Shown here: piece by piece, positions 17,405 through 60,613 of the stretch
How positions within the stretch are numbered: the first letter of the stretch is position 1
Layout of the letters: each line of letters begins with the position of its first letter
Origin: Rhizophagus irregularis
Taxonomy: Eukaryota; Glomeromycota; Glomeromycetes; Glomerales; Glomeraceae
DNA length: 64,000 nt
Direction of reading: 5' to 3'
Assembly (NCBI RefSeq): GCF_026210795.1
Contig: NC_089430.1
Coordinates: 930,001-994,000 of the forward strand
Notes under the pieces: model-generated
Seen by the model: only the letters and a program-made list of their open reading frames with translations
Database searches by the model: none
What the model was told of the DNA's origin: nothing
Made by a program: the position numbers and the translations under genes

Positions 17405-17579
17405 CACAGGTCGAACAGATGTCATTGTTGCAAAATTTGCCTGGAATTTTTCTGGCAAATTGAAAATTATCCCGGTGAATTAGGGTAAATTGTGTTACAA
17501 TTTTGGGATAATGGAGGTCTTACAATTTGGCAAATTTTGTCAAAATGGCGGAATTCCTACAGAATTCCTAATTCAAATG

Positions 17580-18480: not shown

Positions 18481-18581
18481 CAAATTTACCAAATTTGAAA
18501 TAAAAATTGTCAAAAATATTACATATATTTTGATATTTATTATATAATCCATTAATATCCCTACATATTCTTCCTACACCC

Positions 18582-24700: not shown

Positions 24701-25274
24701 TGAATGTCATATTACCGGATGATATTTTGGATTTACTAGTTGATTACTACAATCGCGCTTATGAAGAATATAATTTTAGCTGACCACGGTTAGATCCTTC
24801 TTCATCAACCAAAAATTACATTGCTGTAACTGGAAATATCACACAATGTGGCAGATTGCGAATCGGTGCAGAATATTTTGGGTCAATATTATCCAAAAGG
24901 TATATTAGAAGCTCTTATATTTTAGCACATTTTATAGAACAACGTGGAAATGATATAGACACATATCCCGGCCAGGTACAATTCTATTTCAAACATACAG
25001 TTCATCTTCCGAATGGTCCGACAGAACATTATTTGGCTTTTGTGAATTGGTATAAACCCGCTGCGACCGCAAACATCAGATTTTTTTTTCCAGCGAAGAT
25101 TCTGATGATTTTACGAATGATCCGGAACTTTGGAAAAAGGAGTTTTTTAATTCTTCAGTTGATAGTATAATTCCGGTTCATCACATATTAGGTAGATTTG
25201 TTCCAGCAAAATTTAAATACAAACGTACTGAATACTTGGCCATTTTACCGTTAAATAGAAGATTTCACATTTAA
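21702..25274 (+). pseudogene. E2 TNP2-type (Transposase_21) transposase
   Basis: N-terminal zinc motif (CYCNKCNRKYVDPRTKQKH), then a long Asp/Gly run (22150-22310), then the core: NVDWFQPFERT, GAICNIPRELRFKPEN, GLMPGPNEPSL, CDIPAARKLCGH, FDPIRFLPVDPMHNLF and FWCFSFKRMNGIFG. These are hallmarks of CACTA TNP2 proteins. An intron 24358-24424 follows the last block, then SLPNSRRKIE. Breaks: MITE B at 22448, a one-base frameshift near 23250, TGA at 24781-24783, and a frameshift near 25090. The stop is at 25274. The exact start is uncertain; ATG 21702 or an internal ATG near 21810 are both possible. Confidence 0.88.
22448..22726 (-). mobile_element. MITE B, palindromic CACTG-type
   Basis: 279 bp, CACTGGTAAAAAAATG to its inverse, inserted in the E2 transposase between codons for LADT and AIDTLIKF. 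The duplicated target is ATAC (4 bp). Removing the element plus one ATAC restores the frame, matching the E1 protein at NIAETATETLIKF. Confidence 0.93.
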
Positions 25275-25389
25275 ATTTACCATAATAAATAATTTTTTTT
25301 TTTGCGAAATTATCCGATTATTATATCAAATTATTCAATATTCAGTAAATAATGTCGCATTTTTTTAGTAAATGATCTAATTTTTCGAT

Positions 25390-26219
25390 AAAATGTTACA
25401 TCTTTCTAGAAAATGTCAACAAATGTACATTTTGCAAAAAAAGTGTCGAAAAAAAATAACATTCTAACGAAAAATGTAACATTTGACCAAAAAAACATGA
25501 AATTTGCATGAAATTTGCTAAAAAATGCGGAATTTTCATAAAAAATGTACCATTTGGCAGAAAATCGGAATATTTGACAAAAAAAAAGCAAAATTTGATT
25601 TTAATTGACAATGTTATAACAATGTTATAAAATGTTGTTACAATGATATTACATTGGTGGCAAAATGTGGAATTTTTATAAAAAATGTACCATTTGGCAG
25701 AAAATCGGAATATTTGACAAAAAAAAAAGCAAAATTTGATTTTAATTGACAATGTTATAACAATGTTATAAAATGTTGTTACAATGATATTACATTGGTG
25801 GCAAAATGTGGAATTTTCATAAAAATGTACCATTTGGCAGAAAATCGGAATATTTGACAAAAAAAAAAGCAAAATTTGATTTTAATTGACAATGTTATAA
25901 CAATGTTATGAAATGTTGTTACAATGATATTACATTGGTGGCAAAATGCGGAATTTTCATAAAAATGCACCATTTGACAAAAAAAAAGCAAAATTTGATT
26001 TAATTGACAATGTTATAACAATGTTACGAAATGTTACATTTGAGGTGTAATGTAGCATTTTTCTAAAATTTCATAAGATTTGCTAAATCGGACAATGTTG
26101 TAACAATGCTATTCCAAAAAATTGCTCAGCATAATGTAGCATTTTTCACAATTTCCCACCATTTTCCAGAAAAATGGGGAATTTGCATTTTTTAAATTTT
26201 GGACAATGGTGCCCTTCGA
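25390..26219. repeat. E2 right subterminal repeat
   Basis: About four copies of a roughly 141-bp unit with GCAAAATTTGATTTTAATTG, ACAATGTTATAACAATG and ATGTACCATTTGGCAG. The matching family, inverted, forms the left arm of N1 (40380-41040). Between 25275 and 25389 there is only AT-rich 3' flank. Confidence 0.88.
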
Positions 26220-28717
26220 CGACCTAATTTAATGTATCCATTTGCTGGAATCAATCAACAACTTGCCACTATGTTTTGTCAGCCTGGGTTTGAAAATTCT
26301 CTCCGACATTGGGCTAATCGGTCAAATTTTGATAATATTTTGACCGATATATATGATGGGCAAGTGTGGAAGAATTTCAAAAAATCGGACAATGAAGATT
26401 CGCCAAATTTTTTCAGAAGCGAAGTGGCTGATTCTCATCTTAGCTTGATGCTGAATCTTGATTGGTTTCAGCTATATGATAGTACCATTTATAGTATCAG
26501 TGTCATATACACCGCTATATGCAATTTGCCACGCAATATCTGATTTAGACGTGAAAATTTATTGACTCTCGGCATTTTACCTGGGCCAAAGGAGGTCAGC
26601 CTACATAAAGTGAACTACTATTTAGCACCAATAGTTAACGAATTGGAAACACTCTGAGCTGGGTTAACACTAAATCGTACTTATGAATGCGAAACACTGG
26701 TAAAAAAATGGTCTATTCTACACATATCCTACACATATCTTACATATATCGGGTACTCAAAATGTAGAAAATCATACACAAATAATACACATATCATACA
26801 CATATCGGGTACTTATATATATAGTATACTTATCAGGTACCTGATATATGTATGATATATATATTAGTACCCGATATGTGTATGATATGTGTATTATTTG
26901 TGTATGATTTTCTACATTTTAAGTACCCAATATATGTAAGATATGTGTAGGATAAATCATTTTTTTACTAGTGAAAATGGAAAGAGAGTTCGTGGCACTT
27001 TAATCTTAGTTTCATGTGACATTCCCGCCGCAAGAAAAATTTGCGGTCATGTTTCTGCCTTAGTTTCATGTCACAGGTGTGAGAAAAAAGCAAATTATGA
27101 AAATGGGCAGCATAATTTTGCTGGAATGGATGATGTAGGGTATTCTGCTCAAGATTCGAATGAGCACCAGCAAAACGCATTAGGTTGGCGAAGATGCAAC
27201 TCAGACTGCTAAAAAGCGCTTCGTCAAAGAAACTGGCGTTAGATGGTCCGAATTGTTGCGTCTATCATATTTCGACCCTATTAGATTTATTACAGTCGAT
27301 CCAATGCATTGCTTATTTCTGGACATTGCGAAGTGGATAGTAAAACGAATTTGGATCGATGGGGGTATTTTGACACCAAATTCTTTGAACAAAATTCAGA
27401 AAAAGATGGACGAGTTTCAGATACCATCCGATTTAGGTCGAATTCCAGGAAAAATTCATAGTGGAGAGGGATTCACCAATTTTACGGCCAATCAGTGGTG
27501 AATATTCTTTACAATTTATTCAACTGTATCACTTTGGGAACACCTTTCAGACGTAGATAGAAGAATCCTGAATCATTTTGTCAGGGTTTGTTCGATTTTG
27601 GTAAATCAGATTCTAGAATTTAATTTGGTGGATGAAGCCCATAGAAGTCTTATCGAAATAGTCAAGCTCATTGAGAATCACTACGGCAGAGATAAGATCA
27701 CACCGAATCTTCATCTTTCTCTGCATTTGCGTGATTGCTCATCTGATTATGGACCATTATATGCGTTCTGGTGTTTCTCTTTTGAACGTATGAACGGTAT
27801 TTTAGGTAAATATCCGTTAACAATTTTTTAACGATTTTAATGATTTCAATATTAGCTTATAATTTATTGATTTTGCACTTTTAGGTTCGTTACCAAACAG
27901 CAACAGAAAAATTGAGTCTGAACTTATGCGTCGATTAATGTTTGATAAACAAATCGAAAATATCATAAGTTCAGGTATCGAAGTAAAAGGTCTTGAATTG
28001 CTAAACAGTCAGCGTACTATCGGGTCCCTTTCAGTTACTGATGAATTTTCGTCAGATGAGATGCATCGATTTTGGCTGAATTCACAAAATATTAAAGATT
28101 CACAGATTTCTGGCAAAGAAGGCTTCCCAGGTGAATTTCTTAAGCCAGTATCTCATAATATACTGCTTTCAAGTGAAATGTTAAATTTAATGGTCGAATA
28201 TTACAATGTGACTTACGAATCATTTGGATTTCGGAGGCTTCTTGTAGAAGGTTTTGATAACGATATAATAATTAGGGTCAAAATTAACCAATTCGGAAGG
28301 TGTCGGATTGGTTCAGAAGTCTTTGGATCGTCATTATCGTTAAGACATGTAAAAAGTTCGTACGTCTTAGCGAAATTTATTACGGATGATGAAGATGTCA
28401 ACACCTACCCAGGTCAAATTCAGTATTATTTTACTCACATAGTAGACTTTCCGGATGGTCCCGTCGAACATTTTCTAGCATACGTTCATTGGTATAAACA
28501 CGCAAATTCAACCAATATTCGATACTATTTCAGCAGTGATGAAATTTGTAATGTTGAGTTGTAGAATACCGAATTTTATCTAATAAGTCGTGATTGTATA
28601 ATACCTATGCATCATATTTTAGGTAGATTTGTACCAGTAAGTTACCAAATCTCAAACCGGCAAAATGCAAAAGAGTATTTAGCCGTAAATCCAATTAGTA
28701 GAAAATACCAATTATAA
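26220..28717 (+). pseudogene. E1 TNP2-type transposase, 3' part
   Basis: Continues the protein of 16365-17404: RRPNLMYPFAGINQQL, LNLDWFQLYDST, CDIPAARKICGH, FDPIRFITVDPMHCLF, FWCFSFERMNGILG. Interruptions: TGA at 26541-26543 (Arg in E2), TGA at 26655-26657 (Trp in E2), MITE C at 26695, a frame change near 27212 and TGA at 27499-27501. An intron of about 80 bp (27806-27884) occupies the same place as the E2 intron after MNGILG. After it SLPNSNRKIE resumes, with a TAG at 28562-28564, to the end at 28717. Inactive. Confidence 0.85.
26695..26973 (-). mobile_element. MITE C, palindromic CACTG-type
   Basis: 279 bp, left end CACTGGTAAAAAAATG, right end CATTTTTTTACTAGTG (one substitution), flanked by AAA. 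It lies inside the E1 transposase 3' part. Confidence 0.9.
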
Positions 28718-28739: not shown

Positions 28740-29321
28740 TTTATAATAAATTGAGTAATTGACTATAAATTTGGTGTTGATTTTTTCCGAATTTCTGAAT
28801 TTTAATGACAAATCATGTTTTTCAAAAGTTAATTTTGATGACTTTTTTTGTATCAATCAGCCGTCAATCAAATATAATGATTTTTTGCCAAATTTTTATT
28901 GAATTTTTATTGAATTGTCAATTTTCCATAAATTGGAAGTACATATTTGAATATTGGGCAAATTTTAGGTTGATTTGCCATTTGTCCGATTTTTTTTTTG
29001 ATTTCAACCAGTATCAATCAGCCGTCAATCAAATATAATGATTTTTTGCCGAATTTTTATTGAATTGTCAATTTTCCATAAATTGGAAGTACATATTTGA
29101 ATATTAGGCAAATTTTAGGTTGATTTGCCATTTGTCTGATTTTTTTTTTGATTTCAACTAGCATCAATCAGCCGTCAATCAAATATGATGATTTTTTTCT
29201 GGATTTTCATTAAATTGTCCGATTGGCATCAATCAGATGTGCCGATTTGTAATGTCAGTCGATTTTAGTCTGATTTTTAGCTGATTTTCCATATGTCCAA
29301 TTTTTTTGATTTCGACCAGTG
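28740..29321. repeat. E1 right subterminal repeat and terminus
   Basis: About two and a half copies of a 150-160 bp unit containing ATCAATCAGCCGTCAATCAA and AATTTTCCATAAATTGGAAG, ending in TTTCGACCAGTG. Confidence 0.8.
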
Positions 29322-31994: not shown

Positions 31995-32929
31995 AATTAC
32001 TACGGTGTACCGTTTGAACGAAAAGTGCCAAAATTTCGAAAAATTGATTTTTCGATTTTTGAATTTTCAAAATCTCCTTATAAGGAGATTCTCCTTATAA
32101 GGAAAATCTCCTTTTATGGCAATGTAACGTTACACAAATGTCCAAATAAGGAAGTTTGTATTACCAAATTTCCTTTTTTGGACGTTTTGTGTAACGTAGA
32201 TCTATCCTATAAAAGGAAAATTTCCTTATAAGGCGATTTTAAAAGTTCAAAATTTCGAAATTTCGAAATTTCAAAAAAAAATTACCATAAAAGGAAATTT
32301 TTTTTAAGATTTTTGAAATTTTGAAATTTCGAAATTTTGAATTTGAAAATCGCCTTTTAAGGAAATTTTCCTTTTATGTAAGGGATCTACGTTGCACAAT
32401 ATTTAATTTATAGTGCCAGCCAGAATTATAATCTCCTTATATGGAAATTTTGTTTAAAAATATTTTTTTAACAAATCTGGTGGCTAAACTATTTACCCGA
32501 ATTCCGAAATCATGTGTTAATATTTATTTTTACCAAAAATTGGAGTAATCCTGGCCGGATTTAAGAAAAATATTAATGTAACGTTACACAAATTTCCAAA
32601 AAGGAAATTTTGCTTCTCGCAAAAAATTGGAAATTTGGTTTCACAAATACTCCAAAAAAGGAAATTTACATGGCGATCACTTAATTCCGGCCAGCATTAT
32701 AAATTTTTTATATTCTTTATTAATTAAAAAAATTTAATTTTTTTAATAAACTTTTAATTTTTTTTTTAATGATCTATATATACTTTATTAATATTAAGTT
32801 CATATACCATATAAACAAATTATCATAAGCTATATCCATCCAATAGAATGCAATCATCAAAATAATAAACTTTTAATAAACTTTAACTTTTTAATTTTTT
32901 TTAATAATAATAATTATTATTATTATTAT

Positions 32930-36540: not shown

Positions 36541-38255
36541 AATTAATATAAATTTGAAAATCATAAAATAAGCATATCTTAATCTGTTTTATAAGTTTAT
36601 TTAAAGAAAAAAAATAGTTTTTAAATACTATTTTTAACTTTATATTTAAACAAAGATTTTGCTAATTATATCCAAAAATAGAAAAACAAAAAATAAAAAT
36701 TTAAATAAATTGAAAATGGCATTTAAAACCTCATTTTGTATTTTAAGTAAACTTATAGAGCAGATTAAAATAGTACATTTAATATATATGTTTAAGAGAT
36801 TGTATTATTTTATATATATGGTGAAAATTTTATTTAGAAAAAAATGTTTTTTTGAAATTATATAATTTACTTCTACTTTAGACATTCTTCAAAAAGGAAA
36901 GTGTAATGCATTATATATGTAATGAATAAATTTACTTATAATAAAATAATATAAAAAGGATATTAAAGGCAAATATTGGAAAGACTTATTGGAAAAAATA
37001 TAAAAAATTTATTAAAAAAAAATTTTATTAATTTGCATTTTAGGTAAAATTATCTAAAATAAAATTTAGCAGTTAAACAATTGTTAAAATTTAGCCTACA
37101 ACATTACTACTAGCTAATAATAAATAATAACAGATTAATTATTGAAAATAAAAAATAGAAAGTATAATGTCTGTAATAAATAGCTTTTTTAGTATTATTA
37201 CAAAATTTTTCTTATATAATTATAGCAAAAATTTATCTCCTTATACTTTAAATACTCTTCACATTTCCATTTTTATAAGTATTCTAAAAACAGAATTTTT
37301 TCAGTAATTAAAATCTATTTATTATGATCTTATTTATCATATGGTTCATAATGCTAGCCAAAAAATCATGAAAAAAAAATTTTGTAGTAATACTACTAAT
37401 AAATTAAATAAAAATTAAAGAATATAAAAGAATATTAAAAAGAATATTAAAAAAATTATCACACTATAATTAAGCTATAATGCTGGCCGGAATTAAGTGA
37501 TCTCCATATAAATTTCCTTTTTTGGAGTATTTGTGAAACCAAATTTCCAATTTTTTGCGAGAAGTAAATTTCCTTTTTTGGAAATTTGTGTAACGTTACA
37601 TTAATAATTTTCTTAAATCCGCCCAGGATTACTCCAATTTTTGGTAGAAATTAAATATTTCCTTTTTTGAAAATTTGATCACAAGTAACTGTAAAATTAA
37701 TAAAATCAATTATAATTCCGGCCAGAATTACAATCACATGATTTCGGAATTCGGGTAAATAGTTTAGCCACCAGATTTGTTAAAAAAATATTTTTAAACA
37801 AAATTTCCGTATAAGGAGATTATAATTCTGGCTGGCACTATAAATTAAATATTGTGCGACGTAGATCCCTTACATAAAAGGAAAATTTCCTTAAAAGGCG
37901 ATTTTCAAATTCAAAATTTCGAAATTTCGAAATTTCAAAAATCTTAAAAAAATTTCCTTTTATGGTAATTTTTTTTTGAAATTTCGAAATTTTGAAATTT
38001 TGAACTTTTAAAATCGCCTTATAAGGAAATTTTCCTTTTATAGGATAGATCTACGTTACACAAAACGTCCAAAAAAGGAAATTTGGTAATACAAACTTCC
38101 TTATTTGGACATTTGTGTAACGTTACATTGCCATAAAAGGAGATTTTCCTTATAAGGAGAATCTCCTTATAAGGAGATTTTAAAATTCAAAAATTCGAAA
38201 AATCAATTTTTCGAAATTTTGGCACTTTTCATCCAAACGGTACACCGTAAATTAC

Positions 38256-40358: not shown

Positions 40359-40399
40359 TAACACAGGTCGAAGGGGCAATATTGTCCAAAATTCAAAAA

Positions 40400-41400
40400 A
40401 TGCAAATTCCACATTTTTCTGGAAAATGGTGGGAAATTGTGGAAAATGCTGCATTACGCTGAGCAATTTTTTGGAATAGCATTGTTACAACATTGTCCGA
40501 TTTAGCAAATTTTATGAAAATTTGGGAAAATGCTACATTATATCTCAAATGTAACATTTCGTAACATTTCATAACATTGTTATAACATTGTCATTAAAAT
40601 CAAATTTTGCTTTTTTTTTGTCAAATGTTCCAATTTTCTTGCAAATGGTGCATTTTTATGAAAATTCCACATTTTATTTCAAATGTAATAACATTTCATA
40701 AAATTGTTATAACATTGTCAATTAAAATTAAATTTTGCTTTTTTTTTGTCAAATGTTCCAATTTTCTTGCAAATGGTGCATTTTTATGAAAATGCCACAT
40801 TTTATCTTCAATGTGATATCATTGTAACAACATTTCATAAAATTGTTGTAACATTGTCAATTAAAATCAAATTTTGTCAAATATTCCGATTTTCTGGCAA
40901 ATGGTGCATTTTTTTTATGAAAATTCTATATTTTTTGTCAAATGTTGCATATTTTCAGCAAATTTTATGTTTTTTTGGTCAAATGTTTCATTTTCGTCAG
41001 AATGTTAAAATGTTACATTTTTTTTTGAAAAATGCTCAATAATATGGCATTACACTGGAAAATGTAGCATTTCACCAAATTACACTAAAAAGCATCACAA
41101 TTATCACATTTTTTGGAAAATTCCACATTACACTAAAAAATGTAGCAATATACTAGATTATGTAGCATTACACTAAAAAATACCGCAATTACACTAGACG
41201 ATGTAGCATTATACTAAAAAGTACCACAATTATCATATTTTTTAGAAAATTTCGCGTTATACTGGAAAATGTAACATTATGCTAGAAAATGCAAAATTGC
41301 ACTAAAAAACGCGGAATTGCACTAAAAAACACAAAAAAAATACTACAATTACACAGGATAACGTAGCATTACACTTAATTACATTAGATAATTTTTTATT
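40400..41400. repeat. N1 left subterminal repeats
   Basis: Four or so units of 140-150 bp homologous to 25390-26219, followed at 41040-41400 by shorter units around ACACTAAAAAATGTAGCA. Short plus-strand ORFs here are repeat artefacts. Confidence 0.85.
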
Positions 41401-41479
41401 TATTTGTAAAATTACAGACATTATTAAATTTATAATATTTATATTCTAACGTATTATTTAACATTAAATTCACATTGTT

Positions 41480-42200
41480 AATATTAACAATGTATCAACA
41501 CGATGTGTTGTTTAATTTATATATACGAAACCTTATTACTGAAGACTCCCTCTTTTTGTCACTATAAACAGGCGGAGGGAGCAGCAATGGCTCTCCCCCT
41601 ATAGGTACTTTATGGCCTCTACCTGTTTACAGAGAAGGGGCTTTTCGTAAAGTTATTAGATAGATATATATATATGTATATATATAAGTATATATATACA
41701 TCTATCAAAAATTATAATAAAAAAAAAAAATTATTTCGGGGAAAAAGCCCCTATTTATATAAATTTTATATCACGTGCATCACGTGATATTACTTAATAA
41801 TTACCGCAGCTTAGCTGCGATATAACGAAAAAAAAAATTAAGCTTTTTTTAGCAAAAGCTTAATTTTTTTCTCTTTTTTTTACGGCCTTAACCTTTACTT
41901 CCCTTCTTTCGCCATTTCACCTTCCCTGTTTCTCTCACCTTCCCCTTCCCCCTTTCCCTTTCGTTCTCCCCCTCCCTTTTCGTTCCATTTCCCTTTCCTT
42001 TTCGTTCTCCCCTCCCTTTTCGTTCCATTTCCCTTTCCCTTTCGTTCTTTTCGTTCCATTTCCTTTCCCCTTTCCTTTTTGTTTCCCCCTCCCTTTTTGT
42101 TTCATTTTCCCCTTTCCCCTTTTGTTCTTCCTCCCTTTTCGTCCTTTTCCCTTTCGTTTTCCCCTTTCCCTTTTCGTTCTTCTTTTTCCCTTCCCTTCCC
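41480..42200 (+). promoter_or_regulatory. palindrome-rich and CT-rich leader of the N1 array
   Basis: A run of perfect or near-perfect inverted repeats: ATATCACGTG paired with CACGTGATAT near 41770, CGCAGCTTAGCTGCG near 41806, AATTAAGC...GCTTAATT near 41836, and GGGGAAAAAGCCCC near 41738. An alternating TA stretch lies at 41665-41705. From 41875 the plus strand is CT-rich with repeated CCCTTTTCGTTCC. This looks like a promoter region with two CACGTG boxes; no protein is encoded. Confidence 0.5.
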
Positions 42201-42240
42201 CTTTTACTGTAAATTAGAAATATTGGAAATTTCCTTTCAG

Positions 42241-44440
42241 AAAAACAAAAGGGTAAGTTTCGAATTGTTCGATTCGAAACTTTAATATTTTTTTTATTTT
42301 TTAGGAAACGTTTCTAACGTTTCCTATATCTTCTTTATTTGGAATTACATGAGGTAAATTTTATTACACAAAAATTTACAAGAATTCATTGCAAGTTTTT
42401 AATTTTATTTTATTTTATCAAAGGCATTGGATAATATAGCAATAGCAGATAGAGATTTACAACAATGAGAATTAATTGATGCTCTTTTTTTTATAGGTCT
42501 TTTCGCCGTATTCAACTTGGAAAAATGAAACGGTAAGTTTCGAGGCGTTCGCCTCGAAACTTTTTTTAAAAAAATCTTTTATTAGGAAACATTACTAATG
42601 TTTCCAATAATTCTTTTTTTTTGTAGGTTTTTTTGGCGTACTCGACTTAGAAAACGAAATGGTAAGTTTCGAGGTGTTCGCCTCGAAACTTTTTTTCTAA
42701 ATTCTTTTTAGGAAACATACTGACGTTTCCTTTCTTTTTTTTTTATAGATTTTTCGGTGGTTTGACTTTGGGAAACGAGAAACCGAAAGGTAAGTTTCGA
42801 AGCATTTCGCTTCGAAACTTTTTTTTAAAAAAAAAATTTTTTAATTTTTTGTAAGGAAACGTTTCTAAGTTTCCTTTTCCTTTTTCTTTTTGTAGGAACG
42901 CCGGACGTTTGGATAATGTATTTCGAAACGAACGGTAAGTTTTGCAACGAATCGTTGTGAAACTTAATTAATTATTTTTTTTTTTTATTAAAAGAAACGA
43001 TTAACTAACGTTTCTTTCTTTTACTTTTGTAGGTTCCGGACGTTTGGATAATAAATTTTGAAACGAGCCGGTAAGTTTCGCAACATGTGTTGCGAAACTT
43101 TATTTTATTAATTTTTTTTTAAAGAAACGATACTAACATTTCTTTTTTTTTCCTTTTTTTAGATTCCGGACGTTTGGATGATGAATTTCGAAACGAACCG
43201 GTAAGTTTCGCAACATTGTGTTGCGAAACTTTATTTTATTAATTTTTTTTTTAAAGAAACGATACTAACGTTTCTTTTTTCCTTTTTTAGATTCCGGACG
43301 TTTGGATGATGAATTTCAAAATGAACTGGTAAGTTTCGCAACATTGTGTTGCGAAACTTTATTTTATTAATTTTTTTTTTTAAAGAAACGATACTAACGT
43401 TTCTTTTTTCCTTTTTTTAGATTCCGGACGTTTGGATGATGGAATTCGAAACGAACTGGTAAGTTTCGCAACATTGTGTTGCGAAACTTTATTTTTATTT
43501 ATTTTTTTTAAGAAACGTTAACTAATGTTTCTTTTCTTATTTTTGTAGGAACGCCGGACGAAATTTTTGGGCGAAAGGTAATATTTTCGTTTTTTTTGTT
43601 AATAATTTTTTTCTACGAAACGTTAACTAACGTTTCAGTTTTTTTTTATAGATCCATGGCTTCGCCTCCAGGACGAGATTTCGAAGGTAAATATTTACCT
43701 TCGAATCAATTTTGTTTTTTTTTTGTTTAACGAAACGTTAGTAAATGTTTACTAACGTTTCGTTTATCTTTATTTTTGTAGTTTATTTTCCGGTCGCCTT
43801 CTGTACGGAAGAATTTTGAAGGTAAATATAAGAACCTTCGAAGTTTATTTGTTTTATTTACAATGAAATGTTTACTAACTTTCGGTTTTCATTTTTTAGG
43901 TTCCAGGATGCCGTTTCAACATTTCAAAGGTATTAGAACTTCGAAATTATTGGATTTTTGTTATGTAACGAAACATTGTTTAAAGTTTCGTTTATTTATT
44001 TATTTTTTTTGTAGGTTAAAGGAACGGAAAAATGAAAGGGAAAGGTGAAGACGAAAGGGGAAAGAGAAAGGGGAAAGAGAAAGGGAAAACCGAAATGGAG
44101 TGGAACATTTCGAAGGTATACTTCGAAATGTTTGTTATACCTTCGAAATGTTTTTTTTTTTTAGGTTTGGACATACCGGAATTCAATATTTTGAAGGTAT
44201 ATTATACTTCGAAATATCTTTTATTTTGATTTTTTTCAACGAAACATATATTAACGTTTCGTTTTTTTTCTTTTTTTAGGTTCGGCGGTCCTTGTATGGA
44301 ATTTAACATTTCAAAGGTATATAACTTCGAAATGTTTTTTATTTTGATTTTTTTCAACGAAACGTATATTAATGTTTCGTTTTTTTTCTTTTTTAAGTTT
44401 TCACCAGCTTTTACTTCGGCACTGGACATTTGATACATGA
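42241..44440 (+). other. microexon array with structured introns (N1)
   Basis: Sixteen introns follow one another. Exons: 42241-42252, 42497-42532, 42627-42661, 42749-42789, 42896-42934, 43033-43070, 43163-43200, 43291-43328, 43421-43458, 43549-43577, 43652-43686, 43782-43821, 43900-43929, 44015-44115, 44165-44196, 44280-44316, 44397 onward. Apart from the first (244 nt), introns are 49-106 nt. Introns 1-9 start GTAAGT inside a hairpin (arms such as AAGTTTCGAGGC and GCCTCGAAACTT). Later donors (GGTAAAT, GGTATA) pair across the exon end, as TTTCGAAG with CTTCGAAA. A second hairpin has arms such as AAAGAAACG and CGTTTCTTT around ATACTAA, followed by a T-tract and TAG. Four exons of 38 nt are near-identical copies in a 130-bp unit. 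No frame stays open through them, so the RNA is probably noncoding or alternatively spliced. Confidence 0.75.
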
Positions 44441-44639
44441 ATGAATTAGAGGTGTGGATTATCCATAGATCATCGGATATCTGATGAATATAGATCAATA
44501 TAGATTCTCATCGTTAAATAATAATTGTGCATTTGTTAATAAATAATATTGTAATAAATTATGTAAAATTATTAAATCAGTGTTTTAAATTGTCACAGCG
44601 CTTATACTAAATTGTTTAAAATTATTACTAAATTTCACA

Positions 44640-45873
44640 CAATTGTCCAAAATTATTGCAAAATTTCACTAAATTGTCTCCGAAAATGTTGCATTTTATA
44701 CCGTTTACACTCAATTGTCCAAAATCGGTAAAACATTTTCACTCAATTGTCCGAAATTATCCTAAATTTCACTAAATTATTCAAAGATTTAACTAACATT
44801 TACCGAAAATATGCAAAATTCACCACAATTTTCCACAATTTGCATTACGTTTGCACAACATTGCTAAAAATTCGCCTAAATTTTCAACAATTTACATAAC
44901 ATTACTAAAAATACACTACAATTTACCACCATTTGCATTACGTTTGCATAAAATTACTAAAAATTCACTATAATTCACCACAATTTGCATTACGTTTACT
45001 AAAAATTTGACTAAATTTACCACAATTTGCATTATGTTTACATAAAATTACTAAAAATTTGACTAAATTTACTACAATTCGTATTACGTTTACATAAAAT
45101 TACTAAAAATTTGACTAAATTTACCACAATTCGTATTACGTTTACATAAAATTACTAAAAATTTGACTAAATTTACCACAATTCGTATTACGTTTATATA
45201 AAATTACTAAAAATTTGACTAAATTTACTACAATTTGCATTACGTTCACTGGTAAAAAAATGATTTATCCTACATATATCTTACACATATTGGGTACTCA
45301 AAATGTAGAAAATCATACACAAATAATACACATATCATACACATATCGGGTACTAATATATATATCATACATATATCAGGTACCTGATAGGTATACTATA
45401 TATATAAGTACCCGATATGTGTATGATATGTGTATTATTTGTGTATGATTTTCTACATTTTGAGTACCTGATATATGTAAGATATGTGTAGGATATGTGT
45501 AGGATAGACCATTTTTTTACCAGTGGTTTACATAAAATTACTAAAAATTTGCCTAAAATTCACCTCAATTTACATTACGTTTGCATAAAATTACTAAAAA
45601 TTTAACTAAATTCACCACAATTTGCACTTCGTTTGCATATCATTACTAAAAATTTGCCTAAAATTTCCCACAATTTAATGATAATTTACTGAAAAATTTC
45701 TCAACATTTGAATTAGGAATTCTGTAGGAATTCCGCCATTTTGACAAAATTTGCCAAATTGTAAGTCCTCCATTATCCCAAAATTGTAACACAATTTACC
45801 CCAATTTACTGGGATAATTCTCAATTTGCCAGAAAAATTCCAGGCAAATTTTGCGACAATGACATCTGTTTGA
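44640..45873. repeat. N1 right subterminal repeats
   Basis: About 15 copies of a 50-54 bp unit with ACCACAATTTGCATTACGTT and AAATTACTAAAAATTTGAC, the inverse of the E2 left arm. MITE D interrupts it. The outer 200 bp are single-copy terminal sequence matching 17405-17600 inverted. Confidence 0.88.
45247..45525 (+). mobile_element. MITE D, palindromic CACTG-type
   Basis: 279 bp, CACTGGTAAAAAAATG to the perfect inverse, flanked by GTT on both sides. Removing it restores a standard repeat unit (ATTACGTTTACATAAAATT). Nearly identical to copy A. Confidence 0.94.
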
Positions 45874-45882
45874 CCTGTGTAA

Positions 45883-47442: not shown

Positions 47443-49714
47443 TAGGGATGGTAAATTAACCGTTAATTAACTGTTAATTAACCCAATTATAATTTCTGGT
47501 CTATTATAACAAATTTTTATAATTTTTATAATTTATTTAATTAAACTTATATTTTTATTTTATATTTATCAAAATTTATTTATTATTCAGTTGCTAAATC
47601 CGTAATATTTAATTCTAACCCGAATATTCTATCATCATCATCATTATTGTTATCGTTACCAGTATTATTATTATTATTTATATCATTATTGTTATTATCA
47701 TTACGCCGATCATGTATTAATTTTCTTTTTAACCCCTTTTCGTACAACTGAAGATTTCCGTAAATATAAACCAACTTCTTAACACGTTCATTTTGCAATC
47801 GATTACAGATTTTATTATTAATAAACCCAAACGTAGAAAAATTTCTTTCAGCGGCGGCAGATGACGTTAGAATTGAAAGAATCTTAATAGCTAGTTGTTG
47901 AAGGCTACTATTTGGCCAAGATTGCCACCATACAGACGGACTAAGGTTAGTAGATGATAACCAAATCGTTTTATTATCATATGGTGAATTTTTTTGACGA
48001 AATTTTACTAATTCTGTAAACATAATCACAGATTCCTCTTGACCGAACCTTTTACTTGTGAATTCTGTGAATTCTCTATATCTCGTTGCCTCTATATCAG
48101 TATTTTTGCTTTCTTCTAAAAAACATGGATCTAACATATAAGCAGCCATCATAACAGGATGGTATGTATAATCCCACCGTTTTTGAACAAGTTGTTGAAT
48201 ATTGTTGGAAAAATTACAAGAGATTTCACTAACTCAATGCATTAATTTTTTGAAGTGAAAATAAACAGTTGAAAGAGTAGATGTGTCTGATTCAAACAAT
48301 TTTAACGCTATAACTATTGGCTCTAAAAATTTTATAATTGTGTCCAACATATCCCAAAAATTTTCTGATAATACAAAATTTCTTACTGTATTATTTATTT
48401 TTTTACAGATATCAGGATCCATTAATGTTTGTTCAAGAGCAGTTTTTGATTTTTGAAGTGACTGAAAGCAGCTAAGATGTGATCCCCATCGTGTAAGTAC
48501 TGGTAAAACCAACGCAATCTCTTTATTATAATTTTCACCTTGAATACGTTTTAATTTTGCTGCTGCTTGTACATGAGACTTAAAATAATTTACTATCATT
48601 TTAGAATTTTCAACTATGGGTTTAATTTCATTAATCTTTAAAACATCCCCAATTAAAAGATTAATAACATGAGAGTTACACCCAAGACAAACAACATTGG
48701 AATATTTTTCCTCAATTCGTCTCCATGCTGATTTCATTACACTAGCTGTATCCATAATAACAGCTGAAAATTTTTGAACACCAATAGCTTCTATTTGTTG
48801 AATAATTTCATTTAAAATCCATTCTCCTGTATGGGATTCTTCACCTGAAAATGTAGCATTAAAAAAAACTGGTTTAGGAGTACAAATGATAAAATTTTGT
48901 ACTGATTCTTGATTAATATTAGACCAACCATCAGAAACCATATAAAGAGTATTTGCTTTGGAAATTTGTTCATCAGTTTGTAATTTTACTTCATCGTAAA
49001 CATCATTTAATAAATCTCCAGCAAGTTTTCTCCTATTTGGCAACTTGAAGGATGGCCGAAGACATTTAAAAAATTGAATGACAAGCGGATTTTCAACAAA
49101 GGCAAATGGTACTCCAGCTGAAAATAATGCTTGTGCTAGTTGAAATTCAAGGTCGTCTTGTTCTTCTTCGCTTATACGATCAACGAAATTCTCAATCTTA
49201 GATGTTTTAGTTATTTTAATTCGTTTTACAGGTATATTTGTATGAGTAGTATTTGGAGTAATAGTTGGAGTGTGAATAGTGCTAGTTGTGGAACCTTGTA
49301 AATTAATATTTTTTTTAGACTTTGCATTATCCGGTGCTCCTAGACATTCTTTATCAAGATGATTTTGCATTCGTGCAGGAACAGCTCTATTCAAAACTTT
49401 AGAACAATAATTACATTGTACAGTAGGATGGGAGTTGTTTTTATTACTTTCTGTTTGGTTTTGTGTAATAATAGTCCAATGTTTCCAAACAGCACCTTTT
49501 TTTTTAGTCATTGTTAAATTGAAAAATAAAAAAAATTATTGAAAAAAAGATCGATAAAAATCAGAAAATCGGTCACGTGACTGTGATCACTTCTTTTAAT
49601 TGGCTAATTTATAATTAACCAAATTAACCGTTAATTAACCAAATTTGCTTAATTATAATTAACCGTTAATTAACCGCAGTTAATTAACCATGGTTAATTA
49701 ACCCCCATCCCTAC
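47443..49714 (-). mobile_element. hAT transposon (2272 bp)
   Basis: Ends TAGGGATGG and its inverse, with an exact 8-bp target duplication CGTTAGTT at 47435-47442 and 49715-49722. Many copies of TTAATTAACC or GGTTAATTAA lie just inside each end. One transposase gene fills the element. Confidence 0.95.
47583..49511 (-). pseudogene. hAT transposase with one in-frame stop
   Basis: One frame runs from MTKKKGAVWKHW (49511) to NITDLATE (47583), about 642 residues, broken only by TGA at 48234-48236 between KKLMH and VSEISC. In order: BED-type zinc finger (CNYCSKVLNRAVPARMQNHL), DUF659-like segment (LPNRRKLAGDLLNDVYDE, SDGWSNINQESVQNF), the catalytic region with VIMDTASVMKSAW and LTRWGSHLSCF, and the C-terminal hAT dimerisation domain (WWQSWPNSSLQQLAIKIL, SSAAAERNFSTFG). 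The tail is Asn/Asp-rich. A CGA-to-TGA change would explain the stop, so inactivation is recent. It catalyses cut-and-paste transposition in the nucleus. Confidence 0.93.
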
Positions 49715-52348: not shown

Positions 52349-55300
52349 CACTGGTCGAATGAAGGGCTACCGGGTAAATTTCATATACCCGATAGCCCTA
52401 TTATATGTTTTCGATTTTAACCTGAATGGCAGCTGATCGATCCACCCGATTTGTGACCGGTTCTCGGCGCAGATCAGGTATAAGTCATGTGACTTTCAGG
52501 TTAGAACATAACGGTAAAGTGCTATATGAATATCGGGAGAATTTCAGCAATCCGATATTTCTCCGAACTATTTATAATATTAGATGTATATTTGCTACAT
52601 CGAAACCCGAAACTTATTATTTATTCATTTATATATACTATATATTATTCATTTATTTATTTATTTAACATAATAACATATATATATATTTATTTTATTT
52701 ATTATATTTTTAAAAATTATTTTTAAAAATTCGTTAATTTATCCTATTCTATCTATCTACATTATGTTGTTAATGGTTTGGAATATTATTCCAGTTGGTT
52801 CGATTCCAACAAACAACTATTTTTCCCAAAGTTTTTATGCCAACTCTTCCGAACTATTGCCTACTAATACCAAACGAATTAAGCAGAAGATGGATATTAG
52901 ATTGTGGTGGATTAGGTTGATTTTGACTTGGTAAAATTGTGAGTGAAATATTATTTCGTTCTCTATAAAAAAAAAGAACGTTTAGTAAACGTTCTTAACG
53001 AAAAATATTAAAAAAAATAAGTTCTGGTACCTTGTGTCAATTTCATCTTGAGCGAATTACCTACAAGAAAACGAAAAAAGTAACGTTAAAAATGTTACAA
53101 AAAAAAATAGAAAAACCCTTCTATTTACCTTTCGTCCAAAGTCCAGTTCGTAATCTTGTCTGGCGTTCCTACTAAAAAAGAAAGAAACGTTAGTACGTTT
53201 CTTTAAAACAATTAAACACCATACACCGCATTATCCCATATACCTAAGTCCAGGTTCTCCCAAATTCCTAGGAGTCCGGTAATCTAAAAAACAAAAAAAG
53301 AAACGTTAATACGTTTCTTTAACATAATTAAACACCAACGCTATACACTTCCCCATATACTTTACCGGGTTCTTCCAAATTCCTAGGAGTCCGGTAACCT
53401 AAAAAAATGAAAAAAAGAAACGTTAATACGTTTCTTTAATACAATTAACGCCATACACTCCTCCCATATATTTTACCGGATTCTTCCAAGTCCGGTAACC
53501 TAAGAAAATGAAAAAAGAAACGTTAGTACGTTTCTTTAACACAATCAAACGTCATACGCCACCCATATATTATACCGAGACTTCCAAGTTCCTAGGAGTC
53601 CGGTAACCTAAAAAAATTGAAAAAAAGAACGTTCGATACGTTTCTTTAACAGCCCCCATATATCTAAATCCGATTTATTGAAAAAAAATATTTAGTTTCG
53701 ACAAAAAAACTTACCGAATTTAAATACCGAGCTCAACAAATCCTACAAAAAAAGAAAAAGAAACGTTAAAACGTTTCTTAATAAAAATAAAGTTTCGTAA
53801 CGATTTTCGTTACGAAACTTACCATTTCGACCTTAGAGTACCGGAGCGGCGGAGCCTACAGATTCTACAAAAAAAATAATAAGAACGTTAGAAACGTTCT
53901 TTGAAAAATAAAAAAAATATTGAAAGTTTGAAACTTACCCTCTCTTAGGCCTTAGCATCCCAGTCCGGTATAAAAGTCGAAGGGAGCCTACAAAAATAAA
54001 TAAAGAAACATTAGTAACGTTTCTTTAAAAAAAAAATAAAAAAAAGAATCGAAGTTTCAAAACGAAACTTCGAAACCTAACCGAAATCCAATATCCAGAG
54101 AGTATCTACAAAAAAAGAAGAAACGTTAATATAACGTTTCTTACAAAAAAAAGAATAAAAAAAGATTGTTTCGCAACGTTTAAACTTACCGTTTCGAAAC
54201 ACCGAGCCGAACACTTGAACCTACAAAAAAGAGAGAAACGTTAATATAACGTTTCTCAAAGAAAAAAATTTTTTAAGTTTCGTAACGTAACTAAACGTCG
54301 CGAAACTCACCGTCATTTCGAATTTCACAAGGCCGAAATACTTGAACCTACAAAAAAAGAGAGAAACGTTAATATAACGTTTCTTACAAAAAAATAAATA
54401 AAAAATAAGTTTCGCGTTGTGAAACTTACCATTCGAGGTTTGCCATTTCGAAGCTCCCCACTTGAACCTACAAAAAAAGAGAGAAACGTCAGAATAACGT
54501 TTCTCAAACTCTCAAAGAAAAAAATTGTAAGTTTCGCAACGCGCTGCGAAACTTACCGTTCGTTTCGTTGAAAAATGAAAAAAGATATTTTGAAGTATAC
54601 TTGAAGTATATCTTCGAAATGTCGAATTTAATTTCGTCCGTCTAAGGAGCCGCCCAAAAGAAACCGAACCTAAAAGAAAAAAAACGAAACGTTAATAAAC
54701 GTTTCGTTGAAAAAAAAACAAAAAAAAATATATTTCGAAGTATACTTCAAGTATACCTTCGAAATGTCGAGTAAGGAGCCGCCCAAAGAAGTCGAACCTA
54801 AAAAAGCAAAAAAAACGAAGCGTTAATAAACGTTTCGTTGAAAAAAAAAACCCAAAAAGAAAGACATTTTGAAGTATATATACCTTCAAAATGTCTTATT
54901 GATTTCCGTCCGTCCAAGAAGCCAAGAAGCCGCCCAAAGAAGCCGAACCTAAAAGAAAAGAAACGAAACGTTAATAAACGTTTCGTTAGTCGAAAAACAA
55001 AAAAATAATTATTTCGAAGTATACTCGAAGTATACCTTCGAAATATCGAGTTCCGTCTCCAAGGAGCTGCCCAGCCGAACCTAAAAAAGCAAAAAAAACG
55101 AAGCGTTAATAAACGTTTCGCTAGTCGAAAAAATAAAAAAATAAATTATTTCGAAGAAGTATACCTTCGAAATGTCAAATTCCGAACCTATACCTTCGGC
55201 GTTCTGGACCTAAAAAATAAAAAAGAATATTAGTGCTAACGTTCATTAAAACAAATAAAAAAAAATTTTTTGCTTACTCCGGAAGACTGGAACTAATTTA

Positions 55301-55867
55301 GATACCGGTATATGTCTTCGGCTTCCTTAAAGTCTCCAAGAGTCCGGCATTTCCTTCAAAAGAAAAGAAGTCCGGAGACTACTAAAGTGAAACTTTTTAA
55401 TCCGTTTCTGCATGTTGCAGATTATATTCCGAACGTTGGACGAGCTTGCCAGAAGTTAGAAATTTGATTTCGAGTTAAATATTTGGTTCTTCAAAAGGTG
55501 TGATAAAAATTTATTTATTTAAAGTATTGTAAGAAAAAAGTTAAAAAAAAATTAACTTTAAAGTGTAAAAAAAAAAAGTTTATCAATTAAAAAAAAGATC
55601 GAAGATTTTTGTGGGAATAGAAATAATTACATGCCGTAAATTATTCCAATGACCTATCAGACTACTGATAGGTATAATAAAATTTTCTGATATTTTAATG
55701 ATATGTCTTTAAAAAATCAGATTTTTTTCATAAAATATTATTAAACATTTCAGATTACCGATACTTGTAAATGTTTAATATTGCCTATCATGCCATATCG
55801 GGTTTCTGATTATTTCCTGATATTTGACCAATACGTTATTACCCGATATTTCATCATTTGACCAGTG
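52349..55867. mobile_element. N2: non-autonomous CACTA-like element with a microexon array
   Basis: Ends CACTGGTCGAATGAAGGG (left) and, inverted, CACTGGTCAAATGATG (right), flanked by TGC at 52346-52348 and 55868-55870. Just inside the left end is a hairpin AGGGCTACCGGGTA / TACCCGATAGCCCT. No transposase is present; the interior is the minus-strand array at 52960-55270. The termini resemble E1 (CACTGGTCGAAAT), so an E1-type transposase is a candidate source of mobility. Confidence 0.85.
52960..55270 (-). other. microexon array with structured introns (N2)
   Basis: About 19 intron-type hairpins with arms such as AAAGAAACGT and ACGTTTCTTT occur every 100-150 bp on the minus strand. Each is followed by a T-tract and TAG, and most are preceded by GTAAGT or GTATA donors. 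Well-defined exons include 55165-55209 (45 nt), 55036-55080 (45), 54884-54948 (65) and 54757-54797 (41); several end TTTCGAAG, as in N1. Donor hairpins are present (AGTTTCGTAACGA / TCGTTACGAAACT near 53791-53819; AAGTTTCGCA / TGCGAAACTT near 54530). One donor near 54611 reads AT instead of GT, and an acceptor near 54575 seems lost. The first three exons share one open frame of about 50 codons; the array as a whole does not. Confidence 0.7.
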
Positions 55868-56744
55868 TGCCCTATCATCGTTTGTCAAACTACCGGTCAC
55901 TTTAATGCTTACCTTGGGTTTAGAAGAGAAATTGACAGGTTCGAGTTGCTCTCCTATAATACAGGCGATTGTGTTTAGTTCTACGTCTGTGTCAGAACTC
56001 TTTTTGGTACTTTGAGTACTTACGTGATTAGATGAATTATTTGGCGCCGAGTTGTCATTCTCATCGTCCTCCACATTGTCTAATACATCCTCTGGGTGGA
56101 CTTCAGTGGGTGTAACATTCCAGAGGTCGAACATGTCCAAGTTTTCCCTGTCGATGGTCGAGCTGAGAGAGAGATAGGCCCAGAAGACTTGGTGGTGTCT
56201 GACATTACTTTTCATTCGTCATACGACTATAACCTGTTCTACAAATTCTAGACCATGTAACATGGTCGCTGCTTTGTATGTGGTATGTTTCCTGGAATCT
56301 GTGAAGTCATATTTTAGTACTATCTCATCAGTAGCTTGGAAGTCCGTGAAAGCCTTTTTATCAGTATGCTGCATACTATTTGTTCCTCTGGGGTCAGTTA
56401 CTGAAGAGGCTGAACTATTTTGTCTCGGAGAGTTGGCACTATTCTGGTGGGGGCATTTTGTTTTCGATGAGTTTGGATCGTTTGTTTTCTCAGTCTGCGT
56501 TTTATCTGAATTTCCCATTAAGTCGTGTATCGCATTCCCAAAAGACTATCTTTTGTAGTCTGGTATTTTTTGGGAGGTTAGACACGGGTTTATTTTTTTC
56601 GTCAGTGTTTGGTGGACCATCACCTTCTGGCTCCGTTGCTGACGGATTGGAGATGTTATCGTTTTTTACATTTTTTTCAGGGTGCTTTGTTGGACGATTT
56701 CCAGGCATGTACTTATCTAGCAAATGATTGTGGCATGTGTTCAA
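55868..56744 (-). pseudogene. decayed ORF of unknown family, split by N2
   Basis: Minus-strand reading: NTCHNHLLDKYMPGNRPTKH (56744), a frameshift near 56510, MGNSDKTQTEKTNDPNSSK, then TGA at 56219-56221 and continued frame RMKSNVRHHQVFWAYLSLSS through EVHPEDVLDNVEDDENDN to SLTNDDRA at the N2 junction. The polar, Asn/Ser-rich composition suggests a disordered protein, possibly the Gag-like ORF of an old retroelement, but no zinc knuckle or enzyme motif is visible. I do not recognise it. Confidence 0.45.
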
Positions 56745-58062: not shown

Positions 58063-58280
58063 AAAAGGGGAAGGGAAGATTTAGAGCAGTCGTAAAGGTT
58101 CGTGGTTTATAATTTTTTTTTACCCCTAGAAGATAACCAGATATGACCGGAGGACCACAGAACCGCAGGACTATAGGACTACAGGAGGTAACCAAGTAGG
58201 AGTGCAGATCTTTGGAAAAATTATTCGGCAATTGAAGATTAGGTAACTATAAATTAGTACTTGATTTGATAGAACAAAAA
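58056..58280 (+). promoter_or_regulatory. conserved leader before helicase 1
   Basis: A roughly 225-bp segment (AAAGGGGAAGGGAAGATTTA, TACCCCTAGAAGATAACCAG, CAGATCTTTGGAAAAA, AATTAGTACT) is over 90% identical by eye to 60386-60613, which precedes helicase 2. It contains repeated CGCAGGAC and CTACAGGAGG motifs. It probably carries the promoter and 5' UTR. Confidence 0.6.
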
Positions 58281-59555
58281 ATGACTGCCCAAACTAGCAC
58301 TCAAGCTCAAGTTATCCCCAAGTTCAGTGAACAAAAGAAGGCTTTTAGTATTGATGAGCTTAAACGGCTCATTAACGCTGCAAAGAATATAAGGGATCTC
58401 AATCAAGCTAAAGGTTATCTTTGCAGTTACTTTATCCCCTGCTCCAACCCGCATGGAGTCTTCAAGTGGCGATCAGAAATCAAAAACCTTGAGCACATCC
58501 CTGATAAAAATATTAATAAACTTATCCGTCCAATTACCAAAGTCTTTTACACACAATCTGAACAGGGTCCTTCACAAAAGGTTGAATTTAATATCAACAA
58601 ATGGTTTATGATCGAATATAGTACTGTATGTGTAGCTACCTGTGACCCTCAAAAATTCCGTATCTTTAAACTAGGTGGCCAACTTTATCTCAATATCTTT
58701 CCAGGATTCCTCCATATCCTGCGTCCGATATCTACTTTTGAATCTACAACCCACCTCGCGGTTAAATTTATCTTCTCTCACATTCAGGATATCTGGTGTT
58801 CAGGCGATTGGAATCTTACTGAGTATATCATAAAGTGGTTGGCCGGTGTGGCAGCTGGAAGGAAAATGTATTCGATTCTCTACCTGAAATCTGGACAGGG
58901 TTGGGGTAAGAGTATTATAACAGATTTCATTCAACGTAGTGTCTTAGGTACTCAACTTGTTTATAAGACCAGCGATCTTCAAACGATTCTTGGAAGTTTC
59001 AATGGGCAATTACAAGGTAAGGTTCTTCTCCTTCTCGAGAAAATGCCTACAGAAAAAAGCCAGTGGAATAATCTGTATCGATCGTTAAAGGATAAGGTAA
59101 CAGGTGACATAATGGAAATCCATGAAAAATACAAGACGCCAACACATTACAAAAACTTTATATCCACCATTGTACTCACTAATGAAAATGCTCTCAGAGT
59201 GGAGAATGACGATAGGCGCACAGTGTTCTTGGATGTGTCACCATCCCGCAAGGGAGACCTCAACTACTTTAAGAAACTCAGTGACGCTATGAAATACCTA
59301 GGCGCCAGTGAGGCATTCTATGCTTACTTGAGAGCCATTGCAGATGCTTACCCAGACTTCAATGGGAGTCGTCGGGCTGGATGTGGGAGGTGCAAGCACC
59401 ACCCACCTCCGGGTCTACGACCCGTCGCAGTACCTATATCCCCCCTACGGGGGATCAGGAATCCCCCATATATACTACTACCATGGCCACAGTGGCCATG
59501 GCTGGTCACACTACTTTCCAACTCCTTTTTTTTATCCATTTTTTCTTATATATAA
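58281..59555 (+). pseudogene. D5-like SF3 helicase 1, truncated
   Basis: ATG at 58281. Residues 204-211 SGQGWGKS are the Walker A loop, 248-253 VLLLLE the Walker B strand, and 297-301 IVLTN SF3 motif C; WCSGDWNLTEYIIKWL precedes the ATPase, as in D5-type primase-helicases. The relation to helicase 2 ends at PDFN (about residue 361), where GC-rich hairpin repeat copy 2 begins; the last 64 codons are repeat-derived (RAGCGRCKHHPPPGLRP). The C-terminal half is therefore lost. The family (DUF5906/D5) unwinds DNA for replication of large DNA viruses, phages and some mobile elements. Confidence 0.8.
59368..59468 (+). repeat. GC-rich hairpin repeat, copy 2
   Basis: Matches 57213-57312 with few changes (CCCCCTACGGGGG in the third hairpin). 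It sits at the point where helicase 1 is truncated. Confidence 0.82.
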
Positions 59556-60385: not shown

Positions 60386-60613
60386 CGTGGATTGAAAAGG
60401 GGAAGGGAAGATTTAGAGCAGTCGTAAAGGTTCGTGGTTTATAGTTTTTTTTTACCCCTAGAAGATAACCAGATATAACCGGAGGATCGCAGAACCGCAG
60501 GACCATAGGACTACAGGAGGGTAAATTGGTAGGAGTGCAGATCTTTGGAAAAAATATTCGGCAATTGAAGATTAGGTAACTATAAATTAGTACTCGATTT
60601 GATAGAACAAAAA
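60386..60613 (+). promoter_or_regulatory. conserved leader before helicase 2
   Basis: Homologous to 58056-58280 almost base for base, including TACCCCTAGAAGATAACCAG and GATTTGATAGAACAAAAA before the ATG. Stronger conservation than expected for random spacer suggests promoter or UTR function, or recent duplication. Confidence 0.6.

Follow-up and report, generated by a model that had tools for sequence, protein, structure and literature searches.

What kind of locus would consist of one intron after another, with scarcely any exon between them, and what would keep the letters of those introns paired? We examined this question in Rhizophagus irregularis, a soil-dwelling arbuscular mycorrhizal fungus that lives with plant roots, using a 64,000-nucleotide stretch of contig NC_089430.1 (positions 930,001 to 994,000; referred to as the window, with its own coordinates used throughout, on the + strand unless marked -). 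Splice-signal calls and a hairpin scan place a tandem array of 16 consecutive predicted GT-AG introns and 15 internal exons at 42253-44397 (array A). An earlier note on this DNA had described such a row with exons mostly of 29 to 41 nt, and this is borne out: the internal exons are 36, 35, 41, 39, 38, 38, 38, 38, 29, 35, 40, 30, 101, 32, and 37 nt long, with 14 of the 15 in that range and the 101-nt exon as the sole exception. All 16 introns have GT-AG ends, but these are the signals by which they were picked; they are accompanied by branch motifs and T-rich tracts, and some array units appear by eye to have lost an acceptor or a donor. Intron 1 (42253-42496) is 244 nt long, and the same intron is 93 nt in two sister loci, L010 and L011, which lack about 150 bp found between the branch hairpin and the acceptor in the window copy (∼42338-42485). 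Repeat analysis of the window shows that exon and intron repeat together as one unit, and among 29 loci neighboring introns have a mean similarity of 0.856 (n = 125) versus 0.723 (n = 513) for those at least three apart, consistent with the amplification of intron-exon pairs that the note had suggested.

Array A occupies the interior of a non-autonomous DNA transposon of the CACTA type (element A, 40362-45879), which is dispersed in the genome and was recognized from flank matches, terminal inverted repeats (TIRs), and target site duplications (TSDs). End alignments define an 11-bp left TIR, CACAGGTCGAA (40362-40372), and a right TIR with one mismatch, CACAGGTCAAA (45869-45879, -), and end comparison reveals the TSD TAA on both sides (40359-40361 and 45880-45882); the short TIR starting with CAC and the 3-bp TSD place the element with CACTA/CMC transposons. 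Both ends are present in 15 array elements, 13 of which have a perfect TSD (the exceptions, with mismatches, are L028 and L045). At the right end, 16 of 17 alignments terminate at 45879-45882, and the remaining one is cut by the limit of its stretch. Among the first 20 loci retrieved, every one has a match to some flanking segment, and in 16 the matches fall on both sides of the array. Between the left end and the array are subterminal repeats with periods of 128-129, 20-21, and 41 bp (40526-41345; repeat analysis), a conserved leader block (41540-41650) with at least 40 genome matches at 97-100% (40 of 95 candidates scored), and a long pyrimidine-rich tract (41905-42210; sequence reading and repeats). 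Beyond the array are the last exon and 3′ region, in which AATAAA is present (44398-44620; comparison among copies), and right subterminal 52-bp repeats (44850-45249; repeat analysis and copy comparison). The 3′ region is alike among the copies inspected, but length differences break any single frame. The right end has at least 40 genome matches (40 of 90 candidates scored), and one 130-bp array unit has at least 243 among the best candidates scored. We note that the pyrimidine tract and a purine-rich stretch of the 101-nt exon (44034-44095) look roughly complementary by eye, and that a nested 279-bp element lies inside element A (45247-45525), with a second copy at 22448-22726, both with the TIR CACTGGTAAAA, and further ends of this type at 20846-20856 and 26695-26705.

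A plausible source of transposase for element A is present in the same window. The element at 17405-26220 (-), delimited by end alignments and an ORF domain match, matches element A at both ends (92.8% over 193 bp and 96.0% over 199 bp) and encodes an ORF (23277-24374) matching Transposase_21 (tnp2; PF02992, 8.7e-9), and for these reasons it may have mobilized element A. Among 10 window ORFs, Transposase_21 is the sole domain matched for this element. Plavaka, a subgroup of CACTA/CMC/EnSpm transposons, is described as prevalent in R. irregularis in a section of PMC11075540. Its left TIR is degraded and no TSD was seen at its ends. Elsewhere in the window, the segments at 32069-32113 and 38137-38181 are apparent mutual reverse complements (AAAATCTCCTTATAAGG) about 6 kb apart and are perhaps the ends of another element, with weak covariance-model matches nearby at 32198 and 37978. 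Pieces of a hAT-type transposase (Dimer_Tnp_hAT, DUF659) lie at 47583-49511, and the ORFs at 58266-59555 and 60599-63112 match DUF5906, the second also being poxvirus D5-like, perhaps reflecting a virus-like or Maverick-type element. An Rfam search gave no match and a tRNA scan found none.

The window also holds a second CACTA-type element with an array of its own. Element B (52349-55867, -; 3,519 bp) was delimited by end alignments, with the TIR CACTGGTCRAA, the TSD TGC/TGC in the window copy, and an array at ∼52970-55299; 16 other copies stop exactly at 52349, 14 stop at 55867-55868, and three more stop no more than 11 bases away. A terminal repeat at 29311-29321, CACTGGTCGAA, is oriented opposite to that at 52349. 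Outside its array, element B has no stretch of at least 60 nt matching the element A loci, and only the TIRs are alike. Elements A and B are distinct families that probably share some history, because their TIRs differ in 1 to 2 of 11 letters and their arrays give local alignments of ∼64-89%. Unit searches point to further arrays with units 74-87% like those of element B on C9, C15, C11, C30, C32, and others; those at C9:4281713-4282452, C15:4128679-4129418, C11:3803394-3804032, and C32:1741263-1741893 have ∼111-bp units that are ∼80% like element B units. Within the window, covariance-model matches at E < 0.01 are confined to arrays A and B or their edges, and none is a lone intron inserted in the exons of an unrelated gene, as an introner would be. 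The transposon context, the second element, and the existing annotation of the locus (below) were all overlooked by the earlier note.

Array A contains 21 perfect hairpins (stem of at least 8, at least 3 G-C pairs, loop of 3 to 10), compared with a mean of 0.17 and a maximum of 1 in 30 dinucleotide shuffles, and array B contains 19. The densities are 9.8 and 8.15 per kb, respectively, versus 0 to 1.8 in nine other scanned regions covering part of the window. Every one of the 21 in array A either covers a donor or precedes an acceptor: eight start exactly at donor position +3, two cross an exon-intron junction, and 11 are at branch sites, 13 to 22 nt before the acceptor except for one at 170 nt (intron 1). 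Exon hairpins looked likely by eye, though the scan found no perfect one within the array A exons, and the leader, suspected by eye of being hairpin rich, gave one perfect hairpin only. The scan locates donor hairpins in intron 1 (42255-42282; class 1, stem base at +3), intron 2 (42535-42562; arms GAGGC/GCCTC), intron 3 (42664-42691), intron 4 (42792-42820; GAAGC/GCTTC), intron 6 (43073-43100; GCAACA arms), intron 7 (43203-43231; GCAACA/TGTTGC), intron 8 (43331-43359), and intron 9 (43461-43489). Junction-spanning donor hairpins are found at intron 11 (43680-43705; class 2, with 7 exon and 19 intron nt) and intron 14 (44104-44132; loop GTATA), and branch-site hairpins include those of intron 1 (42302-42326), intron 2 (42585-42605; GGAAACATTACTAATGTTTCC), intron 7 (43253-43277), and intron 11 (43729-43764; a 16-bp stem). 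Folding of intron 5 (42935-43032) confirms the G-U compensation claimed for it, as its donor hairpin (42936-42966) is fully paired solely through G-U pairs.

The plan of two hairpins per intron, one over the donor and one around the branch point, thus holds for part of the array. By the note's own definition the donor hairpin is present in nine of 16 introns, or 11 when the two junction-spanning ones are counted. Perfect branch hairpins are present in 11 of 16 (the 49-nt intron at 44116-44164 has no clear one), but the branch A is unpaired at a probability above 0.5 in just 56% of 275 unique introns from all loci in the predicted fold. Donor pairing takes three forms. The partner may lie in the intron, the stem may straddle the junction, or, in a single case from element B, the donor pairs to the beginning of the exon before it. 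Under a slightly looser loop rule, element B has 20 hairpins, of which 13 are at branch sites, five at donors, one is ambiguous, and one is outside the array; two of the five donor hairpins pair with the intron, two span the junction, and one (53473-53498, -; class 3, the one instance in our hairpin reading) pairs the donor GTAA with the start of the preceding microexon. Of 481 hairpins at sister loci, 430 coincide with splice signals and 51 with no recognized one, in a count that leaves out L010, L030, L043, and arrays of more than 4.5 kb. When donor-side hairpins were sought with no donor requirement, 289 of 332 start with GTAAG or GTGAG. Folding z-scores average -4.5 for the 16 array A introns (four above -2; intron 1 folded as 42253-42345), -0.28 for 53 control windows, and -5.5 for 80 introns sampled from the 275 (96% below -2). 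Among the 275, which were selected for the donor hairpin, the donor +5 G is unpaired at a probability above 0.5 in 1%, and positions +3 to +6 have average unpaired probabilities of 0.02 to 0.11.

Hairpins with differing arms that still pair were read by the note as covariation inside one locus, and comparison among copies supports that reading in large part. We used 45 genomic stretches (L009 to L053, with the overlapping pairs L010/L044, L023/L043, and L030/L046), whose 316 units were filtered to 296 (no more than two mismatches and a GTA or GTG start) and then to 275 unique introns; these are the basis of the tree-aware null, the double-change counts, the G-U and A-C counts for branch hairpins, and the pairing and distance statistics. 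With arms anchored by the outer motifs and the inner positions tested, 241 distinct donor-hairpin strings pair at 0.74 to 0.87 over inner pairs 1 to 7 in register. Most slipped registers give much lower values, although single slipped columns reach 0.79 in these pairs, and at positions 8 and 9 slipped columns reach 0.91, compared with 0.29 and 0.89 in register from few strings. Some of the 553 hits behind this test are probably subterminal-repeat artifacts with GTGAAT starts. Of the 235 introns with ungapped arms, 163 have inner 5-mer arms that complement each other exactly (permuted mean 37.8, maximum 56), and the same holds for 11 of 56 distinct 5-mer arm pairs (permuted mean 2.1, maximum 7). 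On a tree built without the hairpin, there are 45 Watson-Crick double changes in register versus 3, 2, 1, and 4 at offsets of -2, -1, +1, and +2. An alignment of 18 introns, hand-picked for diversity and with the structure derived from the same sequences, so that the control favors structure, has 96.2% of cells paired versus 38-53% for slides; both sides vary in 10 of its 21 pairs, a count that none of 500 shuffles reaches. Of five measures, four lie above every one of the 500 shuffles, and the fifth, the number of further pair types, is reached by 12 of them. Pairing is therefore better than in shuffled copies by the register and permutation controls but not pair by pair on the tree, as a tree-aware substitution-reshuffling null (275 introns, 25 nulls) leaves no pair individually significant (best E, 0.16), even with donor-hairpin pairs making up five of the top 11 among 3,741 column pairs. 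Independent origins are accordingly modest in number.

These observations suggest a transposon-interior array whose hairpins act in the pre-mRNA, an explanation that, taken whole, we give an even chance of being correct. A tandem array of spliceosomal introns and 29- to 41-nt exons grew through local duplication of exon plus intron, and transposition spread it through the R. irregularis genome. Most introns bear a donor-burying hairpin, a branch-site hairpin, or both. A donor would become usable only once its own hairpin opens, which would prevent the many equivalent donors and branch sites of the row from being used haphazardly. Splicing of the array would be slow, local, and prone to skipping. 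We favor such gating of donors over the shortening of the donor-to-branch distance that the note had proposed, because the donor is itself paired, the linear distance (median of 64 nt in the 275 introns) needs no shortening, and the hairpins do not follow the rules for yeast zipper stems. Zipper stems, as set out in part of PMC12350175, start at least 10 nt from the donor and leave a linker of 42 to 85 nt, whereas the array stems start at +3, bury the donor, and would leave ∼35 nt of the 64-nt median. Distance shortening is thus the component of the earlier reading that lacks support; the introns and their microexons, the placement of hairpins at donors and branch sites, the covariation, and the unit amplification are all supported. 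The same source describes structure in yeast as depleted around canonical splice sites, which counts against the explanation that we prefer.

If an RNA fold is selected in each copy, changes to G-U are expected to exceed those to A-C. Single changes from Watson-Crick pairing in donor hairpins are 56 G-U versus 64 A-C on tips, and 17 versus 10 on internal branches, which is not significant; the branch-hairpin counts (6 versus 4 internal; 31 versus 13 on tips) were set aside, as the pairing rule that selects that set favors G-U. Such asymmetry was consequently dropped as proof of RNA-level selection. Because tip changes to G-U do not exceed those to A-C, the present copies look to be decaying as if neutral, with no selection on pairing visible in them, and any selection would seem to have acted in the source lineages. 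Divergence at CpG sites is about three times that at others (0.172 and 0.249 versus 0.051 and 0.092), and at non-CpG sites it is 0.051 in introns versus 0.092 in exons (43501-44400), in 18 alignments with two loci counted twice. The fast CpG divergence is in line with DNA methylation at transposable element loci, as reported for R. irregularis in the relevant part of PMC8647823.

The decay pattern fits a different account, in which the hairpins are DNA palindromes kept or perfected by template switching, foldback repair, or paired sites bound by an element protein, with RNA folding as a by-product. Selection on RNA would leave the G-U bias that is missing, differing arms that pair exactly are what palindrome correction would yield, and GAAACG/CGAAAC words recur by eye in both hairpins. 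We consider this account rather unlikely, however, since the arrays are where the hairpins are concentrated, and there the hairpins cover donors and branch sites by three modes of pairing, and palindromes give no reason for a splice register or for splice signals on one strand. It is less probable again that the array is a duplication relic, with one structured intron copied many times and its structure inherited with no present role. Adjacent units are indeed the most alike, the tree-aware null is unbeaten pair by pair, the tips decay neutrally, and array B, as a diverged relative of A, shows that the common plan need not be convergent. The double changes tell against such a relic, being spread over 35 branches (26 with a single pair) and almost absent from slipped registers.

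Part of array A is already annotated as a hypothetical protein. The conceptual splice product (76 amino acids [aa]) matches 15 R. irregularis database proteins (E = 2e-44 to 3e-20), one of which, P0001 (RIR_jg6779.t1), maps exactly to the array A locus with 11 introns, eight of them identical to the 16 called; of the other three, one falls within the insertion, another passes over an exon, and the remaining one starts from a cryptic donor inside one exon and passes over a further exon. P0005 (OCT59_008614) maps to L010/L044 with seven GT-AG introns, including one of 352 nt that skips microexons. Both are annotation models rather than reads, and we take the OCT59 tag of P0005 to be that of the annotation described next. 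That annotation, by the account in sections of PMC10234402, was built on Illumina and Nanopore RNA reads, with transposon domains removed. We infer that transcripts of the locus are made and spliced in vivo and that the hairpins influence this splicing. The ATG at 41612 opens MASTCLQRRGFS, which is the start of P0006 and P0012, database models of other copies; this conserved-leader ATG is the start in two of the 12 database proteins viewed and is kept exactly in 21 of 35 leaders tested. Exon lengths in a rough 376-unit set, including 54 GTGAAT starts taken as subterminal-repeat artifacts, are most often 31 nt (58 of 157) or 38 nt (51), with 18 of 157 being multiples of 3. Full inclusion of the array A exons leads to stops, the longest open stretch is equaled or exceeded in 83% of exon-order shuffles and 11.5% of base shuffles, and non-CpG exon substitutions number 27, 5, and 16 at codon positions 1, 2, and 3. 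A family of microexon-encoded proteins (hypothetical proteins of 69 to 123 aa, possibly skipping cassette exons to keep frame) would account for the 15 matching proteins, the leader ATG, and the slow change of second positions in the model frame, but is highly improbable, and coding is unlikely in view of the exon lengths, the lack of any excess of open frame, the faster divergence of exons than introns, and substitutions with no third-position excess, to which the absence of a Pfam match may be added.

Returning to hairpins that act in the pre-mRNA, what the element would gain is a matter of guesses, such as recruitment of U1, escape from small-RNA silencing, or slow splicing itself. A broader proposal is that at least two distinct CACTA-type families carry a splicing device, built from tandem intron-microexon units, in which RNA folds maintained by compensatory change in active lineages gate access to 5′ splice sites and frame the branch sites; this we advance tentatively, as somewhat more doubtful than not. 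If it is true, folding would allow long rows of equivalent introns to be spliced, or would purposely impede their splicing, and in this way would control what becomes of the element's transcript. The 316 similar introns in the stretches read differ largely in the letters of their paired arms and constitute a natural mutagenesis set, offering a test bed for a long-standing problem, namely whether a structure that covers a donor or a branch site governs splicing in vivo. The array would represent a new type of interior for CACTA-type transposons and provide a route for the multiplication of introns and microexons, and at least two R. irregularis "hypothetical proteins" (P0001 and P0005) are explained as transposon pieces.

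Several known systems resemble parts of this arrangement. The SP7-like effector genes of arbuscular mycorrhizal fungi occur in the same fungus as dispersed paralogues with tandem repeats, but in the portion of PMC11333574 that describes them the repeats are coding and the first of them is preceded by a conserved intron. A signal peptide and hydrophilic repeats also mark such effectors; the repeats of array A are not codon compatible and lie within a transposon, and its identification as such a gene was rejected. Yeast zipper stems (PMC12350175, in part) are likewise intronic hairpins between donor and branch site, differing in the spacing given above. The introner elements of Amoebophrya are hairpin-bearing introns that spread like transposons, although, as characterized in passages of PMC7789003, they have mostly non-canonical splice sites, a single hairpin joining the intron ends, and a distribution through genes. 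Fungal introner-like elements and symmetrical stwintrons share with array A repeated fungal introns, inverted repeats, and stable predicted folds; by the description in part of PMC8469720 they insert singly at new positions in host-gene exons and are symmetrical from end to end, whereas in array A the unit that multiplies is an exon plus its intron, the copies are in tandem within a transposon, and there are two separate hairpins. Our literature searches found no account of such a transposon interior or array, an absence that is no proof of novelty. Element A has in common with CACTA/CMC/EnSpm transposons the CAC-type TIRs, the 3-bp TSD, the subterminal repeats, and a tnp2 gene in an element with the same ends, and it differs from them in having as its interior a row of intron-microexon units with hairpins.
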